Shown: positions 11,392-19,754 of the stretch, piece after piece
Numbering within the stretch: the stretch's first letter is position 1
Layout of the letters: each line of letters opens with the position of its first letter
From: a virus
IMG/VR virus record: IMGVR_UViG_3300013006_000144
Coordinates: 1 to 21,799 of that record
Direction: 5' to 3' (one strand)
DNA: 21,799 nt
The notes under the pieces: generated by a model
The model's input: the letters and a program-made list of their open reading frames with translations, nothing else
What the model was told of the DNA's origin: nothing
The model's database searches: none
Position numbers and translations under genes: made by a program

Positions 11392-12252
11392 TTAAGATCC
11401 AGCGATAATTCTCATTAGATATCTACAACGACTGTCATACGTATGTTTTTTTAGAGCAGTTTCATAGCCATGCAATTCTATTTCTTCTCTCTTCGAGGGA
11501 TTATTAAGATAGTAGCGTATTTTAAATTTTAAATCATCTGCTGTCGCATATGTTACTAAATCCTTATCTAAAGTAAAAAGCTTTTCTAACCCTTCAGTAT
11601 AGTTTGTAATAAGAAACGTTTTGCAGCCTAGTGTTTCAAATGTTCTATAATTTATATCGTTCGCTATATTTCTATTGAAATTAATCTTATATGAATTAAT
11701 AGCAGTAACCATATCATTACCTATTACAAAAATATCTTTTTTAATATTAAATTCATTCAAGCTTTCAATCCAATCGCCGCGATTTAAGATATTACCACAA
11801 AAACCAACATCATATTTTTTTTCTATATTGAGAGGTTTAATTAAATCGCTCGAATATGCATTTGGAAACCAGAAGCATTTAGGGGTTATGTGAGTAAAAA
11901 ATCTAAGATAATATTCTGTTGAATTAAGATGTATATCGATTTTTAATTTATTGCAAAGGTCGACATGGTTATTCAAAATACAATGGCTATCGATACTCCA
12001 ATATATTTTTAATTTTTTACTCTTATTAATTTTATCTACTGGAAGCCAGTCAGGATAATAGTTTTCGATTATAAAAATAGCATCTGCCCACTTTTCAAGC
12101 TCATCAAATTTTTCGAAATCCGGATATCCGTGGCCCCATACTTTAGCAGAATTGCTCGGTATTTTTTCTAGCGATCGCTGTAGGCAAAGAGATTCACGAA
12201 AATTTTTATTTGCCTCATGTCTTCCTGCTTCCTGTATAATTAGAAACTTCAT
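11392..12252 (-). CDS. Glycosyltransferase, CgeB-like (GT-B, Glyco_trans_1_2 type)
   Basis: Probable sugar transferase of 286 residues. The C-terminal half carries the CgeB/Glyco_trans_1_2 pattern: KYDVGFCGNILNRGDWIESL, a Rossmann-type start with the Gly turn, near 145-165; FNRNIANDINYRTFETLGCKTFLIT near 193-217, matching the family's N.R.FE..ACG.FLLT nucleotide-sugar binding element; then EGLEKLF, LVTYATADDLKFKIRYYL and a closing REEIELHGYETALKKHTY helix. The N-terminal half holds IENYYPDWLP and KIYWSIDSHC, typical of the acceptor domain. Cytosolic; donor and acceptor unknown. It is the last gene of the glycan operon and overlaps the upstream gene by 4 nt. Confidence 0.75.
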   Translation of the reverse strand: MKFLIIQEAGRHEANKNFRESLCLQRSLEKIPSNSAKVWGHGYPDFEKFDELEKWADAIFIIENYYPDWLPVDKINKSKKLKIYWSIDSHCILNNHVDLCNKLKIDIHLNSTEYYLRFFTHITPKCFWFPNAYSSDLIKPLNIEKKYDVGFCGNILNRGDWIESLNEFNIKKDIFVIGNDMVTAINSYKINFNRNIANDINYRTFETLGCKTFLITNYTEGLEKLFTLDKDLVTYATADDLKFKIRYYLNNPSKREEIELHGYETALKKHTYDSRCRYLMRIIAGS

Positions 12253-12677
12253 GTTTTAAAATTATATACAGTATCTGAGCAAATTCCATAACATTTAGAA
12301 ATTTTTTCATTTAAACCCGGCAATACACATATAGACTTTTCTGTAAGAGGCTTTCCTGGATAAGTCCAGATAAAGCCGTTTGACGTAAGTGTAACATCGT
12401 CATCTTGATGCCAGAAGCAGTGTATCTTGTTATTATTTAACATTTTGTATAATGCTTCTATATTTTTTGCATGGCACCATATTTTTTTGTTTACTAGAAA
12501 AGACTCCTCTATATTATAAGTCGGCTCATCGTGTCCGAGATAATATTTTTCATTTTTTACCCAAACGTCAATTTCAACGTCAAAGCCTTGATAAAGTGCG
12601 CTTTCGATATAAAGTGGGTTATTTTCTTTTTCAGGATTTTTACCTGAGACATTACCTCTGTGAGCTATTAGTACCAT
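12249..12677 (-). CDS. Short glycerophosphodiester phosphodiesterase-like protein
   Basis: PI-PLC/GDPD-type TIM-barrel phosphodiesterase relative of 142 residues, about half the usual GDPD length (roughly 240 or more). The metal and catalytic residues of the N-terminal half are all present: IAHRGN with His6-Arg7, KENNP with Glu18-Asn19, VEIDVW with Glu35 and Asp37, and YLGHDEPTY with His49. After that come strand signatures WCHAKN (67-72) and FWHQDDD (88-94) with short helices, then IWTYPGKPL. The barrel appears to be compact or incomplete, yet the frame is intact, so this is likely a distinct short subfamily. It overlaps the downstream transferase by 4 nt and the upstream fusion enzyme by 26 nt. 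It might remove or transfer a phospho-alcohol group in the glycan pathway; that is inference. Confidence 0.65.
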   Translation of the reverse strand: MVLIAHRGNVSGKNPEKENNPLYIESALYQGFDVEIDVWVKNEKYYLGHDEPTYNIEESFLVNKKIWCHAKNIEALYKMLNNNKIHCFWHQDDDVTLTSNGFIWTYPGKPLTEKSICVLPGLNEKISKCYGICSDTVYNFKT

Positions 12678-14049
12678 AATTATTTAAATAATAAACAAGA
12701 TCTTCTGGTGTACCCAGTCCCCACATTTTCGATGAATCGATTTTAAATACTTTAATCTTTTTACCATCTTGTATAGCCTCATTAAAAACTGGACATACAT
12801 AAAATTCGTTATTGACGCGAATATTTTTTTCAATCATTCTCTCAGCATATTTTACATAATCTTTTCCATTTTTCCAGAAATACACACCCACTGTTGCAAG
12901 ATTGCTTATAGGCCTTTTTTCAGCAACTTCACAAACAAATCCTGCAGAGTCGAGCTTTGCGTAGCTCCATTTTGGATGGGTTGATTCAAATACTAATATA
13001 CCACCGTCAATATTATCTGCCATCATCGAATACATAAACTCACTACTATCCCAATCAAGAAATTGATCAGAGTTTGCAAGTAAAAGCGGTCCATCAGTTA
13101 TTACATCCTTAGCTAAAAGTGTAGTGCATGCAGCTCCTTCTGTCAGCCCGCTAGTTGTAACGATCTTACATGATGGTGAAATTAGATGTAAAGTCTCGTT
13201 TAGATTATATTTTTTATAATGATCTTCCTGTGCAATAAAAATATAATTAGCATCAACATTTAAGCTTTCAACAACAACCTGTATCATAGGCTTATTTTTT
13301 ACATCAATCAAAGGCTTGGGAAAAGTATATCCCGCTTTCTCAAAGCGAGTTCCAGCTCCCGCCATAGGTATTAACACATTTAGTTTAGGATCTTGCCACA
13401 TAAGTTTAAGATTAGCTGTACTTTTAGCTTCATAGTTAATTATACAAGTGTTAAGCTTTTCCAAGGTCAAGTCCTCAGGGTTTATAACAGGGCATAAAAA
13501 GGCACCAGAGCTTTTTGCTGCTTTTCTTCCTACGTATGAATCTTCAATAATTAGGGTTTCGCATGGATCCACACCTGCATCAACCATGCATTTTAAATAT
13601 ATCTCTGTACTTGGCTTAGGCTTCTTTACATCTTCATTAGAATAATAATTATCAATAAATTCAAAAAACCCTTTTCTTAAAAGAGTTAGCTTTACTGTTT
13701 CTCTAATTGAGTTTGAAGCTACATATATCTTATAGTCTCTCTCTTTTAAATTACGTAGTATATCTACAATGCGATCATCTTTAGTAAATAAAGAATTAAT
13801 TAATTCTCTTGTAAAAATCTGTTTATCTGTCCATATTTGTGTATAATATTTTTCAGGGAGATTTTTATTTTTTGTTAGCAATTTTAATTTCTTCATTGTC
13901 GGAAGTCCATCATATGTTGATAGATGTTCTTCTTTACCTATTGTGTATTGGCTGTCAACTCGCTCTAGGGCGCGATTTAATGATAGATAGTGTAACTCAC
14001 GCGCATCAGCTAACACACCATCTAGATCGAATATAATAAGCTTAACCAT
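12652..14049 (-). CDS. Bifunctional HAD phosphatase / sugar nucleotidyltransferase
   Basis: Two enzymes in one 465-residue chain. Residues 1-215 are a HAD hydrolase with a helical cap: motif I FDLDGVLAD (Asp8, Asp10), motif II VASNS (110-114), motif III KPKPS (143-147) and motif IV IIEDS (167-171), closest in style to the beta-phosphoglucomutase group. Residues 223-465 are an NTP_transferase domain: LNVLIPMAGAGTRF (223-236) is the nucleotide-binding loop, FPKPLIDV (243-250) holds the conserved Lys245, and LLANSDQFLDWD (323-334) supplies the metal-binding Asp. Together they could prepare an activated sugar or phospho-alcohol, for example dephosphorylating an intermediate and coupling another to CTP, GTP or UTP; the substrate is inference. 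It is 3 nt after the upstream gene and overlaps the GDPD-like gene by 26 nt. Confidence 0.82.
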   Translation of the reverse strand: MVKLIIFDLDGVLADARELHYLSLNRALERVDSQYTIGKEEHLSTYDGLPTMKKLKLLTKNKNLPEKYYTQIWTDKQIFTRELINSLFTKDDRIVDILRNLKERDYKIYVASNSIRETVKLTLLRKGFFEFIDNYYSNEDVKKPKPSTEIYLKCMVDAGVDPCETLIIEDSYVGRKAAKSSGAFLCPVINPEDLTLEKLNTCIINYEAKSTANLKLMWQDPKLNVLIPMAGAGTRFEKAGYTFPKPLIDVKNKPMIQVVVESLNVDANYIFIAQEDHYKKYNLNETLHLISPSCKIVTTSGLTEGAACTTLLAKDVITDGPLLLANSDQFLDWDSSEFMYSMMADNIDGGILVFESTHPKWSYAKLDSAGFVCEVAEKRPISNLATVGVYFWKNGKDYVKYAERMIEKNIRVNNEFYVCPVFNEAIQDGKKIKVFKIDSSKMWGLGTPEDLVYYLNNYGTNSSQR

Positions 14050-14052
14050 AGT

Positions 14053-14928
14053 TTAGCCCTTTGGTGCGTCGTTTTGATAGACGTGTCTATGATGTTTATT
14101 TGCTTCTCCACCGGGACCGTAATCGCTAGGGAAATCAAGCATAAATGGCATATCCATATTCTGTACTCTAAGATTATGCCTATTGTGTACATGATGATGA
14201 ATAAAGAATTCTGCTCCGGTGCCTGCAGGCGCAATTGCACCGTACTCTTCAAGATTTAAAAAAACTTTTGAGTAAGCTTCCATATTATTTCTATTACCCA
14301 TAGCGAACATATCAGTAAGCATACCGCAATATATAGAAAGATAGTTTTGCGGTACGCTAATAGAATCGAGACTGCTATACGCTGCTTCAATCTCTTCATC
14401 AGTTATCTTAGAGAAAAAGAAAGCATCTGGTCTTGCTCTAATAACAATATCATATTGTATACCTTGTTCATGTTCATACTGCTTAAGCAGTTCAAAGCAA
14501 TTATATATATTATAAAATTGGCCGAGTATTGTTTGGCATCTTTGCGTACACCCTTCTTCTGCGTTTAGAAACTTTTGCTTAAGAGCTTCAGGTACATCTA
14601 GCTTTGTTTCTTGAATATCATTTATAGTATATTTCTTAAGGTTGTTAAAATTTTTAATTTGATCTTCATTTGCTTTTTTTCCGCTCCTATTACCCCAACC
14701 AAAGAAAAAGGTATCAGCGTTTAACGGATCTATTAGAAATTTATTCATCCATTCTTGTGTCTGTTCAAAATGCCTGAGACCTCCTGATATACAAATAGCA
14801 ATTTTATATTTTGTGCTAGTAGGTTTAATATTAAATTTTAAGAATTCTTTCGTTATTGCAGGAAAAACATTGCGCACTCTATTACGCGTTAAACATAATA
14901 CTTCATTTTCTAGTAGCTCTTGATTCAT
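14053..14928 (-). CDS. Putative glycosyltransferase-like protein (ISGGLRHFE family)
   Basis: A 291-residue protein of a type common in phage and bacterial glycan clusters. It begins its conserved domain with YKIAICISGGLRHFEQTQEW (41-60), followed by ADTFFFGWGN, and has QYDIVIRARPDAFFF (158-172). The RARPD element is a GT-A-like acidic motif, analogous to the DxD of nucleotide-sugar enzymes. Later come DSISVPQNYLS, MLTDMFAMGNRNNMEAYS and GTGAEFFIHHHVHNRH, a His-rich stretch that may bind metal. The assignment as a transferase is inferred from motif style and neighbours; no precise family name can be given with confidence. It overlaps the DUF3431 gene by 4 nt. Confidence 0.6.
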   Translation of the reverse strand: MNQELLENEVLCLTRNRVRNVFPAITKEFLKFNIKPTSTKYKIAICISGGLRHFEQTQEWMNKFLIDPLNADTFFFGWGNRSGKKANEDQIKNFNNLKKYTINDIQETKLDVPEALKQKFLNAEEGCTQRCQTILGQFYNIYNCFELLKQYEHEQGIQYDIVIRARPDAFFFSKITDEEIEAAYSSLDSISVPQNYLSIYCGMLTDMFAMGNRNNMEAYSKVFLNLEEYGAIAPAGTGAEFFIHHHVHNRHNLRVQNMDMPFMLDFPSDYGPGGEANKHHRHVYQNDAPKG

Positions 14929-15599
14929 AGAAAAAAATCTTCCAGCTTTACTTTAGGCTCTGTTTCGTTACCTGTAAAGATATAGTACCATATCCATTCA
15001 AAAAGTCTTGAAGAATAAAAACTAGGTGCTACCCCTAGATGTGAGTCGAGCATAAGACCGTCAGTATAGAGCCAATTAAGTAGCTTGCTGTATGTAGTGC
15101 TATCATGTCGGTGAATAAGGTCTCTATGTACAATAAATTGCGCAGCTGCATAGGAAGAAATTGATCCTGGTAGAGGACCAAACAACTCGCTTCCTAGTGT
15201 ATGCCAGAAAGCTTTGATTGCTTTATAGGGTCTGTTATTAGACTCGCCTGGAAAAGCACCAGCAGCAATTGTTTTTTCAGGTAGCAGTACGTTATAATAA
15301 TTACCAAAATTAAGCCATTTATTTTTAATTTTTAAAATATCTATTTTGTTAATTAGATCGAGAGCTGAGTATTCTTGATGCGGTGAAGTTAGATGACCGT
15401 GAAAGAAGTATGTCCATTCATGTAAGTTGTCGTAATTTTTTACTATGTATTCTAAATACGATGACGCTTCGTTACCTATATTTTTATCTTGTAGTACTGT
15501 TTTATTGTCTGCTTTTGTTTTAGAGTAGACAATATAATCACATGGAAGTTTTTCTAACCATGCTATATCTTCGTTATAATGCGAAATTACTGTAAGCAT
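14925..15599 (-). CDS. DUF3431 family protein
   Basis: A 224-residue protein matching DUF3431: TVISHYNEDIAWLEKL (3-18) corresponds to the family's VVSRYNEDLSWL start; KNIGNEASSYLEYIVKNYDNL (39-59) to the NxGREASSYLxYI element; and WTYFFHGHLTSPHQ (62-75) to the FLHGH motif. SYAAAQFIVHRDLI near 148-161 and the C-terminal WLYTDGLMLDSHLG and RLFEWIWYYIF segments also fit (YxAQFxVxR and ExxWxxIF). The family is described from fungi and many bacteria and is usually linked to glycan or surface-polymer clusters; a glycosyltransferase-like fold is often assumed. It overlaps its neighbours by 4 and 13 nt. Confidence 0.75.
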   Translation of the reverse strand: MLTVISHYNEDIAWLEKLPCDYIVYSKTKADNKTVLQDKNIGNEASSYLEYIVKNYDNLHEWTYFFHGHLTSPHQEYSALDLINKIDILKIKNKWLNFGNYYNVLLPEKTIAAGAFPGESNNRPYKAIKAFWHTLGSELFGPLPGSISSYAAAQFIVHRDLIHRHDSTTYSKLLNWLYTDGLMLDSHLGVAPSFYSSRLFEWIWYYIFTGNETEPKVKLEDFFL

Positions 15600-17553: not shown

Positions 17554-18220
17554 GCTGAATATGCTGCTTTAATAATTCTATGTGCTCGGGGTTTACAGGT
17601 TTATCATTTTCATCGTATTGACAGCCAATAAATTTGTATCCATCGCGTTTTACTGGGAAAGGTTTCTTTTCAAAAAATTCATCATGTACAACCATATCGT
17701 TAGTAAACAAAGGATATATTTGCTGTGTTATTATAACTTGATCAGTACCCCAGCGATCTTGCTTTGGATACTTAAAGATAAGATCTTTAATATTTCTTAA
17801 TTTCTCTGCTCTAACTCCCCACATACCCCCGAGCATCATCGCATAAGGGCTAGGACCATGCCACGGGTGATCTCTCATAACATGAAGACCTTTTCCGCTT
17901 CTCACCCATTCATCTACTGCTGCGGCTTCTCTTTCATCAACACGGCTATCAGTATCTCTAAAGATAGCATGTGTTACACGTTGATCTGCACAAGGAAAAT
18001 ATCGATAATTCATAAAAAATGCGGAATCACTATCATCAACATACATTACCGTAGCGCCTAGATCTTTTAATTCCTTAGCAATGCTTTTTTCTATAGACGA
18101 TGAAAGATAGAACCAAGGAGACCAATCCGGGTATATACTCTTGCAGAGCTCTGCGTTTTTTAACGCTCCTGTTTTATAGAGCTGCTTTGTTCCATAGAGA
18201 CAAAAGCTTATAACTTTCAT
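17543..18220 (-). CDS. Putative glycosyltransferase (RDTDSR motif family)
   Basis: A 225-residue protein beginning MKVISFCLYGTKQLYKTGAL, a family start often seen in small capsule and glycan proteins. Conserved elements: YPDWSPWFYLS (30-40), ATVMYVDD, MNYRYFPCAD (70-79), and AIFRDTDSRVDEREAAAVDE (85-104), where DTD is the probable metal motif. MRDHPWHGPSPYAMMLGGMWG (115-135) and WGTDQVIITQQIYP near 157-170 follow, where TDQ fits a catalytic-site loop. These features together mark a defined family of DxD-bearing proteins; the sugar is unknown. It overlaps the neighbours by 4 nt (upstream) and 11 nt (downstream). Confidence 0.6.
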   Translation of the reverse strand: MKVISFCLYGTKQLYKTGALKNAELCKSIYPDWSPWFYLSSSIEKSIAKELKDLGATVMYVDDSDSAFFMNYRYFPCADQRVTHAIFRDTDSRVDEREAAAVDEWVRSGKGLHVMRDHPWHGPSPYAMMLGGMWGVRAEKLRNIKDLIFKYPKQDRWGTDQVIITQQIYPLFTNDMVVHDEFFEKKPFPVKRDGYKFIGCQYDENDKPVNPEHIELLKQHIQHAK

Positions 18221-18957
18221 AAAATCTTACTTTTATCGTAACTAATTCCGAGCTTTTGCTTCCACATTTCAGCTTCTTTTATCCTCTCATCTTGTAATGC
18301 TGGCCAGAGAAGGTCTGAATGCTCTTTATCCTTGCCCTCTGTATCACGTAAATTTTGCGCAACTTTATCGAACTTTGTTGATCCAAAGACCCAGTGGTTG
18401 TGTGTAATGGTAATATCACTTCTATAGACTTTACGCTTAAAAGCTAGATACATATTATCTAGCCACTGATCAATCCAATTGCGCGAAAATTCTTCTCTCA
18501 TAAAATATCCTGTCTTTTCCATATAAAATCTATGAATAAAAAGCCACGCAGCAAACTGATCATTTCTATGACCGTCATAGCCTGTTACGAGTTTAAATTT
18601 ATCAGGACAATTTTTTGTTGAAAATTCTTCTAATATTTTCTCATCCCAATTATCAGTAGAAAATACCATATCGTCACCAACCATAGAAATAATTTCTTCA
18701 GTACTATTTTTGGCAAGTACATTCCAAAAATAACCTAGACTAAATTTTCCGGTTGGGTTTGGTGGGATGATAACAATTTTTAAGTTTGTTATTGTTTTTG
18801 CCATCTTTTGGCAACGCTCGAGTGTGGGGTCATCTTTATCAAGTCCCATATAGAGCGTATAATTATTAGGATCTTTGCATCGCGCAAGAGCGCTCATCAT
18901 AAAATTAATCTTGTTATTCATCCTCTCTCTTGTTGGTAGTAATAGTGCAATTTTCAT
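18217..18957 (-). CDS. GT-A glycosyltransferase (GT2-like)
   Basis: A 246-residue protein. MKIALLLPTRERMNNKINFMMSAL (1-24) is a GT2-type first strand and helix; YTLYMGLDKDDP (33-44) is the second strand; LGYFWNVLAKNST leads to IISMVGDDMVF (89-99), in which GDD replaces the usual DxD; WDEKILEEF follows. Later LVTGYDGHRNDQFAAWLFIHRFYMEKTG holds the strand and acceptor loop, and WIDQWLDNMYLAF the typical D..L helix. The final third, with HNHWVFGSTKFDKVAQ, probably contributes to acceptor recognition. It overlaps genes on both sides by 4 nt. Confidence 0.68.
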   Translation of the reverse strand: MKIALLLPTRERMNNKINFMMSALARCKDPNNYTLYMGLDKDDPTLERCQKMAKTITNLKIVIIPPNPTGKFSLGYFWNVLAKNSTEEIISMVGDDMVFSTDNWDEKILEEFSTKNCPDKFKLVTGYDGHRNDQFAAWLFIHRFYMEKTGYFMREEFSRNWIDQWLDNMYLAFKRKVYRSDITITHNHWVFGSTKFDKVAQNLRDTEGKDKEHSDLLWPALQDERIKEAEMWKQKLGISYDKSKIL

Positions 18958-19754
18958 TTTTTCTTTATTCCTTTTAAAAATTTTACGACATCGTCTTTTG
19001 ATGTATCAGGTACACATCCTTCCCATGCTGGGAGATATTTATGCTTTTGTTTAAAAAGTAAAACTCCCTGTTGTATATTTTCTTGCCAATCTGTACGCGG
19101 ACGGATAGAGCTACTACGCTCTGAACATTCAATTTCATCTAAATAATCCATACTGTTTGCAAGGTCAGGCCAATTCCAATAAGGTGTACAGTAACCAGCT
19201 TTAGCAATTCTGTAATCGTGGTCTACGTGCTCAAACGCATTAGTAAAATCTTCATCAATTAGGCCTACTTTCTCTAATACTTCTTTTGTATAATAACAGA
19301 AAGCACCAACACTATGCGCGTTTATTGCAATTTTGACCTCACCGTAATCTACGGTATATCGAGGTTTAGGTGACCCACCTGAAATATTACCTTTGTTTGC
19401 GGGCCCATGATAACCAAAATTAAAATGCTGTATACCGGTAATCTTACTTGCTTCAATATAAGCGTTAAAAACATCAGTACTTTTAATTATAATATCATCT
19501 TCAATAATAAAAATATGCTCACAGCCTCTTTTTAATAATTCTCTAAAAAGTATATTTTTTGATTTACCAACACCGAGATTCTGTGTGTTATGTATATAAG
19601 TGAAAGATTTTTCAGCTCTTAATCTATCAATATCTTGAAAATCACTGCCATCATTAACTATAACAATATCAACACAATTGGGTATTGACCTAAAGCATTT
19701 AAGAAAGAACTTAGGGCGATTACAAGTAACTATGCCTACACCTATTTTATCCAT
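18954..19754 (-). CDS. Family 2 glycosyltransferase
   Basis: First gene of the glycan operon, 266 residues. The GT2 fold is clear: KIGVGIVTCNRPKFFLKCF (3-21), IVIVNDGSD (30-38) with the nucleotide-binding Asp, HNTQNLGVGKSKNILF (55-70), where GVGKSKN is the usual GxAxxRN element, and HIFIIEDDIII (80-90) with the EDD metal motif at 85-87. Further on, GAFCYYTKEVLEKVGLIDEDF and FEHVDHDYRIAKAGY supply the acceptor-side strand and the ED-type catalytic segment. Start ATG at 19754 lies 12 nt after a strong TATAAT. The whole chain seems devoted to GT-A folding plus a short tail, with no membrane segments. Confidence 0.85.
   Translation of the reverse strand: MDKIGVGIVTCNRPKFFLKCFRSIPNCVDIVIVNDGSDFQDIDRLRAEKSFTYIHNTQNLGVGKSKNILFRELLKRGCEHIFIIEDDIIIKSTDVFNAYIEASKITGIQHFNFGYHGPANKGNISGGSPKPRYTVDYGEVKIAINAHSVGAFCYYTKEVLEKVGLIDEDFTNAFEHVDHDYRIAKAGYCTPYWNWPDLANSMDYLDEIECSERSSSIRPRTDWQENIQQGVLLFKQKHKYLPAWEGCVPDTSKDDVVKFLKGIKKK

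Follow-up and report, generated by a model that had tools for sequence, protein, structure and literature searches.

A short GDPD-like protein and a HAD-nucleotidyltransferase fusion, paired in marine viruses and SAR11 bacteria, as the putative core of a surface-glycan modification cassette

Why should a virus encode, in two overlapping genes, an unusually short relative of the glycerophosphodiester phosphodiesterases (GDPDs) and a fusion of a haloacid dehalogenase (HAD) domain with a nucleotidyltransferase? The question is raised by the IMG/VR virus record IMGVR_UViG_3300013006_000144, 21,799 bases of which make up the stretch of DNA analysed here (the window). The short protein (mini-GDPD, 142 aa) is encoded by an ATG-initiated open reading frame (ORF) at 12249..12677 and the fusion (465 aa) by a second one at 12652..14049; these and all the other window features given with coordinates below lie on the minus strand. 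The two ORFs and their 26-nt overlap (12652..12677) had been reported in a first-pass annotation of the window, and the ORF coordinates agree. The answer we favour, with slightly better than even confidence, is that the pair forms the core of a cassette for the modification of surface glycans of the lipopolysaccharide (LPS) O-chain or capsule type, in which mini-GDPD cleaves a phosphodiester of the glycan pathway. Its carriers are best read as T4-like phages of the sea together with a small share of marine bacteria, SAR11 among them.

The first-pass annotation had described mini-GDPD as a half-size GDPD that lacks the second half of the barrel. Its length is indeed about 60% of that of a normal GDPD, but its fold is not predicted to be half of one. 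The AlphaFold model, built with 82 sequences (mean predicted local distance difference test score, pLDDT, 97.3; predicted template modelling score, pTM, 0.91), has eight strands that follow one another as in a barrel (2-6, 33-41, 66-70, 87-88, 95-97, 103-105, 115-118 and 131-134), and helices only at 21-29, 58-61, 73-80 and 137-140, with helices 4-7 absent. In VIA-align, the structural alignment with complete GDPDs spans residues 1..142 of mini-GDPD. The best comparison, with 1o1z, gave a Z of 10.5 and a root-mean-square deviation of 3.2, with 134 of 142 residues aligned to chain positions 1-220; 1v8e and 1vd6 both gave a Z of 10.4, the three alignments covering 134-135 of the 142 residues. 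Ranks 1-31 were all occupied by GDPDs, GDPD-like phospholipases D or, at ranks 4 and 5, the initial portion of a glucanase with several domains. The predicted model has a TIM-type barrel fold, and mini-GDPD looks like a whole GDPD barrel cut to 142 aa, minus the GDPD insertion and helices 4-7. A predicted fold without a closed active site, which the first-pass annotation had named as fatal to its proposal, was not obtained: the predicted fold is complete, its closure being read from the structural alignment.

The comparison with GDPDs (PF03009; TmGDPD 1o1z, TtGDPD 1v8e and PfGDPD 7e0v) is one of close likeness with a few sharp differences. The HRG, EN, ExD and HD motifs, the Lys of ExK and the last-strand (T/S)D are shared, as are, in the model, the strand order and the full-length structural alignment; mini-GDPD differs in its length (142 against 217-255 aa), in the shorter stretch between HD and ExK, in the absence of helices 4-7, and in a His for Glu substitution found in 145 of 145 loci. 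The GDPD-like phospholipase D/sphingomyelinase D group, which comprises secreted lipid-cleaving enzymes, has the same superfamily fold but matches less well than the GDPDs (Z 6.6-7.8); its chains are of 271-289 aa, whereas mini-GDPD belongs to a glycan cassette.

The substitution concerns the putative metal site. The motif order in 26 canonical GDPDs is HRG, EN, ExD, HD, ExK, SF, (T)D, and that in mini-GDPD is HRG, EN, ExD, HD, HxK, F-x-H, (S/T)D. The spacing from HD to (E/H)xK is 59 residues in the GDPD L158 (51 to 110) and 20 in the window protein (49 to 69); between F and the final D it is 90 and 47 residues, respectively. Within ExK, the canonical sample has E in 21/26 sequences and K in 26/26, as against the invariant His-x-Lys of mini-GDPD (H69-x-K71, codons at 12465..12473). 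The place of the GDPD last-strand (F)TD motif is taken by the conserved C133-S-D135 (codons at 12273..12281), at strand 131-134 of the model. It looks, therefore, as if the third metal ligand of mini-GDPD, the E of ExK, had been replaced by His. A profile-profile comparison matched mini-GDPD to the 26 canonical GDPDs with a probability of 93.7 over residues 2-51; because the sequence alignment ends at residue 51, the Glu-to-His equivalence rests on the order of motifs and strands.

By an alignment-based scan, relatives of mini-GDPD are encoded in at least 591 viral stretches, the closest 80 of which were kept; the set analysed comprises 145 loci (97 viral or phage, 48 bacterial). The window itself (L015) was dropped from all locus counts, and L001, whose protein is identical to that of the window, stays within the 145. 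The gene is found in 16 Synechococcus phage records, and most of the 48 loci in bacterial genomes are from SAR11. The catalytic residues pointed out in the first-pass annotation (His6-Arg7, Glu18-Asn19, Glu35, Asp37 and His49) are conserved, together with G48, in 144 of the 145 loci, far beyond chance, the exception being one truncated copy. Conservation extends through the second half of the protein: H69, K71 and H90 are present in 145/145 loci, F88 and W104 in 144, D93 in 142, C133 in 141 and D135 in 139. Alignment A2 retained 81 of 86 relatives, and was made without L001, L012, L014, L016-L021, L068 and five near-duplicates.

The copies are stand-alone genes of constant size (140-156 aa, 5-95% range), and not fragments of frameshifted GDPD genes, the other outcome that the first-pass annotation had named as fatal; the four shortest are those of L143, L012, L014 and L108, whereas a fusion in L068 exceeds all others in length. 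A half barrel or frameshifted GDPD fragment was considered and rejected in view of the model, the full-length structural alignment, the constant length and the conserved residues. The protein matches PHROG_34507 (E-value 5.2e-28, residues 2-131), a family listed as of unknown function, and has no match in Pfam or NCBIfam. Since it has His as third metal ligand and is not recognized by PF03009 (see below), mini-GDPD is best called a recurrent, separate family of about 145 aa that resembles the GDPDs by motif and predicted fold; the earlier suggestion of a short type is supported to that extent.

Two side observations concern individual reading frames. In Synechococcus phage S-CAM9 (L017:8995-9453), the annotation of mini-GDPD begins at a late start, 9166, and covers 95 aa; read from 8995, the frame is open for 152 aa and includes every motif. 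In addition, several SAR11-family genomes contain a frame of 195-212 aa that matches the mini-GDPD profile at residues 3-46 only, possibly another GDPD-like family.

The nature of the partner was correctly stated in the first-pass annotation. Its N-terminus matches the HAD domain PF13419 (5.2e-26, residues 5-183), and its C-terminus matches NTP_transferase PF00483 (1.2e-9, residues 229-432; 38.6 bits against a cut-off of 21.2). The conservation of both parts was examined in 79 of the 82 fusions found (430-490 aa), 43 of which are used in alignments A4 and A5. In the HAD part (approximately residues 1-183, 13501..14049), D8 and D10 are present in 78/79 sequences, and H20, K54, K76, N113, K145, E169 and D170 in 79/79; the DxD nucleophile, conserved Lys and acidic motif IV of HAD-IA enzymes are all in place. 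The nucleotidyltransferase part (approximately residues 224-454, 12688..13380) conserves G231-x-G-x-R-F, P244-K-P and N326-x-D328, with G231, G233, R235, P244, K245 and P246 in 79/79 fusions; with PF00483 above its cut-off and the G-x-G-x-R and PKP motifs, it has the features of a sugar-1-phosphate nucleotidylyltransferase. Because the motifs of both domains are conserved, both look active.

As to substrates, the nucleotidyltransferase is probably a sugar-phosphate activating enzyme, judging from its closest matches: 4evw (4.2e-19 by sequence, 1.7e-29 by profile), which is the best one and has no stated substrate, and, by profile, mannose-1-phosphate guanylyltransferase 7x8j (4.3e-10), the deoxymannoheptose pathway protein 5xhw (4.4e-9) and RmlA (2.8e-8). 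The fusion differs from these NDP-sugar pyrophosphorylases in the added HAD domain. The latter is beta-phosphoglucomutase-like according to Pfam, family profiles, a PDB match and conservation, and spans residues 2-194 in the comparisons with TIGR02009 and 6h8y, but its scores are below the beta-phosphoglucomutase cut-offs (78.7 against 153.35 bits for TIGR02009, 75.5 against 189.4 bits for TIGR01990). In the alignment to 6h8y, H20 and K76 fall on H20 and K76 of beta-phosphoglucomutase, a pair that we take to be a signature of that enzyme, although a literature look-up brought no confirmation; the functional cap residues K45 and R49 of that enzyme fall on S44 and G48 of the fusion.

The other loci support a shared pathway for the two proteins, as first proposed from their adjacency in the window. 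A relative of the nucleotidyltransferase is encoded in 128/145 loci (84 of the 97 viral or phage ones and 44 of the 48 bacterial ones), and the HAD fusion in 82 (50 viral or phage, 32 bacterial); a HAD was counted in 100/145 loci from the gene lists, or in 102/145 when all frames of at least 50 aa were considered. The closest HAD or nucleotidyltransferase gene touches mini-GDPD, or is at most 60 bases away from it, in 39/97 viral or phage loci and 36/48 bacterial loci. All 16 phage records with mini-GDPD also match the nucleotidyltransferase. Conversely, in 13 phage records the match to the fusion covers 80% or more of its length, and mini-GDPD is present in 11 of them, all Synechococcus phages; the other two are of Bacillus phage G, with 22% identity over two genes. 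In the reverse test, mini-GDPD was found within 6 kb in 11 of the 12 fusion loci fetched, or in 7 of 8 after removal of the four whose contigs had contributed to the first set as well. The phage families of mini-GDPD, the nucleotidyltransferase and the HAD domain (PHROG_34507, PHROG_3980 and PHROG_29467, respectively) are all listed as of unknown function, and neither the coupling nor the fold is annotated there.

The HAD is the part that changes. The nucleotidyltransferase occurs with a C-terminal small HAD-III-like domain in L024, L045 and L070 (by Pfam) and in L032 (by similar sequence), with RpiB/LacAB in L019, L021 and L072, and as a tandem of two in L021. A RuBisCO-like protein is encoded beside the nucleotidyltransferase and mini-GDPD in 12 loci, none of which has a HAD, as against 100 of the 133 others (Fisher p 2.5e-7, with loci treated as independent of relatedness). 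The sugar-phosphate supply therefore varies among loci, and the nucleotidyltransferase and mini-GDPD are constant. The loci with the RuBisCO-like protein are L036, L037, L054, L055, L057, L068 and L084 (viral) and L099, L100, L106, L124 and L125 (bacterial); two of these proteins match the RuBisCO III and MtnW models far under the cut-offs, and have PDB matches as well. A cluster of HpcH/HpaI-type aldolases was also noted in eight viral loci (e.g. L061:4321-5001), at a median distance of about 0.6 kb from mini-GDPD.

The link with glycans comes from the neighbouring genes. Immediately upstream of the fusion, a gene at 14053..14928 encodes a DUF7796-type protein (Pfam 1.7e-12), whose AlphaFold model (pLDDT 83.2) has a best Foldseek match of 1.1e-6 and VIA-align Z values of 13.0-11.4, and each of the 50 rows listed is a glycosyltransferase or contains a glycosyltransferase domain. 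It is predicted to be a GT-A glycosyltransferase. The family is represented in 67/145 loci, and in a phage locus (L068:4992-6062) it is fused with mini-GDPD in one 356-aa frame. A mini-GDPD domain, with 48% identity over the domain, is also contained in a 523-aa protein of Homavirus sp. (BFVD A0A3G5A5B5) annotated as an FkbM methyltransferase. The glycosyltransferase partners are diverse, with a mean column identity of 16% (alignment A6, 47 of the 51 listed references used). According to PMC7029224, SAR11 and cyanobacterial myophages carry many LPS-type genes, and these are proposed to alter the O-chain of the host and exclude other phages.

The pair, which the first-pass annotation had advised looking for in bacterial capsule loci, does occur in bacterial chromosomes, in part next to LPS-type genes. 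In SAR11 it is flanked by gyrB and lepA, either by itself or accompanied by a WavE-type gene (L102, L107 and L112; order gyrB, mini-GDPD, fusion, WavE-type gene, lepA), a position that identifies it as a resident chromosomal cassette; in most SAR11 loci the two genes are directly adjacent or overlapping, as in the window. A widespread bacterial gene was ruled out by the genome counts. Strong mini-GDPD matches were present in 10 of 297 sampled SAR11-family genomes, 16 further ones giving weak partial matches (mostly to residues 3-46, in frames of 195-212 aa), and in 2 of 289 genomes of the alphaproteobacterial class sample, including the centre genome, where 16 further weak matches were mostly to the first 50 residues of canonical-length GDPD-like frames. 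In the class samples around a SAR86 and a Chitinophagales genome, only the centre genome matched (1/274 and 1/295, E <= 1e-8). No match was found in a search of plasmids. In a quick tree of 140 of the 145 loci (L001, L012, L014, L143 and L108 left out), bacterial and viral copies are interleaved, with 13 changes, at least four of them forced by well-supported branches, and many forks unresolved; this interleaving speaks for repeated exchange between bacteria and viruses.

On this basis, the cassette might work as follows. The HAD would prepare a sugar phosphate, either removing a phosphate from a bisphosphate or moving it in the manner of beta-phosphoglucomutase, and the fused nucleotidyltransferase would join the sugar phosphate to a nucleotide, as the domain families suggest. 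The neighbouring glycosyltransferases, including the DUF7796-type GT-A protein, would then attach the activated unit to the surface glycan of the host. Mini-GDPD, with a putative metal site in which the His/His pair and the acidic residues are intact and His serves as third ligand, would act in the cytosol on an intermediate of this glycan pathway, cleaving its phosphodiester. In an infected cell, the changed surface would most likely block the adsorption of competing phages. A known parallel to the first steps is the synthesis of GDP-heptose, in which an HAD phosphatase (GmhB) is followed by a sugar-1-phosphate nucleotidylyltransferase (HddC); the fusion would work like these two, which are separate proteins without a GDPD partner. 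Among papers with open-licence full text, none was found that deals with the combination of a short GDPD and an adjoining HAD-nucleotidyltransferase fusion, be it in phages or in SAR11.

Several observations weigh against this reading. When Foldseek alone was used against the PDB, mini-GDPD gave no match at E <= 0.001. By sequence, its C-terminal half failed to align to canonical GDPDs, with which only about residues 2-54 are alignable, and we infer the closure of the barrel from the VIA-align alignment. PF03009 does not match the window protein and matches only one of 82 members, at an E-value of 0.045; a PF03009 search of nine carrier genomes gave three matches, none of them at mini-GDPD. 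In 17 of the 145 loci no nucleotidyltransferase of this family was found, and 15 of them lack a HAD as well; as at least 9 kb of DNA is available for seven of these 15, they are real exceptions. Finally, the pairing rates hold for near relatives of the window protein, the 80 viral loci kept from the scan being the closest of at least 591.

Among the alternatives, all unlikely, the least improbable is that mini-GDPD is a phosphotransferase, which would take phospho-X from the nucleotide-activated product of the fusion and place it on a hydroxyl of the glycan. The constancy of the core against a varying supplier of sugar phosphate (HAD-IA, HAD-III, RpiB or RuBisCO-like), the joining of mini-GDPD to a glycosyltransferase in L068 and the changed third metal ligand would all suit it, but the reaction is suggested by chemical reasoning only and, to the best of our knowledge, no GDPD-fold enzyme catalyses it. 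A wider picture, to which we give equally little credit, is that of an active TIM-type barrel of about 140 residues, spread mainly by marine viruses, whose Glu-to-His site would be that of a phosphotransferase putting phospho-sugar on surface glycans from the product of its partner. Whatever its reaction, if the structural model is right, a natural enzyme barrel, present in many marine viruses and some SAR11, would lie below the designed minimal size, with defined missing helices and an altered metal site, and would reveal the extent to which (beta/alpha)8 barrels can shrink and stay enzymes; it would also give access to a sugar-activation route, so far unstudied, that phages and some of the most abundant ocean bacteria may use to alter their surface. 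The designed minimal barrel sTIM11 has 184 residues (PMC13105402), some 40 more than such a predicted barrel.

A little less credible than phosphotransfer is a route towards the phospho-alcohol-modified sugar of the first-pass annotation, in which mini-GDPD would free glycerol 3-phosphate, or another alcohol phosphate, for the fusion to convert into a CDP-activated alcohol phosphate to be put on a sugar. The GDPD fold with its catalytic residues and the constant presence of the nucleotidyltransferase agree with it. A HAD phosphatase or mutase, however, would be superfluous for glycerol 3-phosphate, the nearest matches of the nucleotidyltransferase by profile are sugar-phosphate enzymes, and no LicD- or TagF-type phosphotransferase was found among the representatives scanned by Pfam. 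Moreover, the replacement of the HAD by RpiB or a RuBisCO-like protein suits sugar phosphates, and suggests them no less than it does glycerol phosphate.

It is very improbable that the cassette modifies the DNA of the phage (hypermodified or glycosylated bases) and not the surface of the host. T4-like phages can glycosylate their DNA, and glycosyltransferases are encoded in the same gene run; yet the pair also resides in bacterial chromosomes, those of SAR11 and others, partly beside WavE/LPS-type genes, and the glycosyltransferase partners vary as widely as expected for surface antigens. Least probable of all is a degenerate or half barrel, either inactive or dependent on dimerization, which the short length, the weak Foldseek match and the absence of helices 4-7 might suggest, but which is at odds with the conserved active-site residues, the full strand set predicted with high confidence, the full-length structural alignment and the constant length, dimerization being compatible with a complete barrel too.

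The genome that hosts the pair is that of a phage. PHROG profiles matched portal, head maturation protease, tail sheath stabiliser and helicase families in the window, which, by these matches, is a fragment of a T4-like myovirus. With 33% identity between its portal protein and the one in Synechococcus phage ACG-2014b, it is related to the cyanomyophages, but divergent from them. The pair sits near the end of a run of overlapping or abutting genes, extending from 19754 down to 11392, that includes several glycosyltransferases by profile. Downstream of mini-GDPD, and overlapping its gene by 4 nt, is an ORF for a glycosyltransferase (Pfam Glyco_trans_1_2, 11392..12252). The gene run also encodes a DUF3431 protein (14925..15599, Pfam 5.6e-25), and starts with two phage glycosyltransferase-like genes (18217..19754) that match the profiles PHROG_14945 and PHROG_2456.

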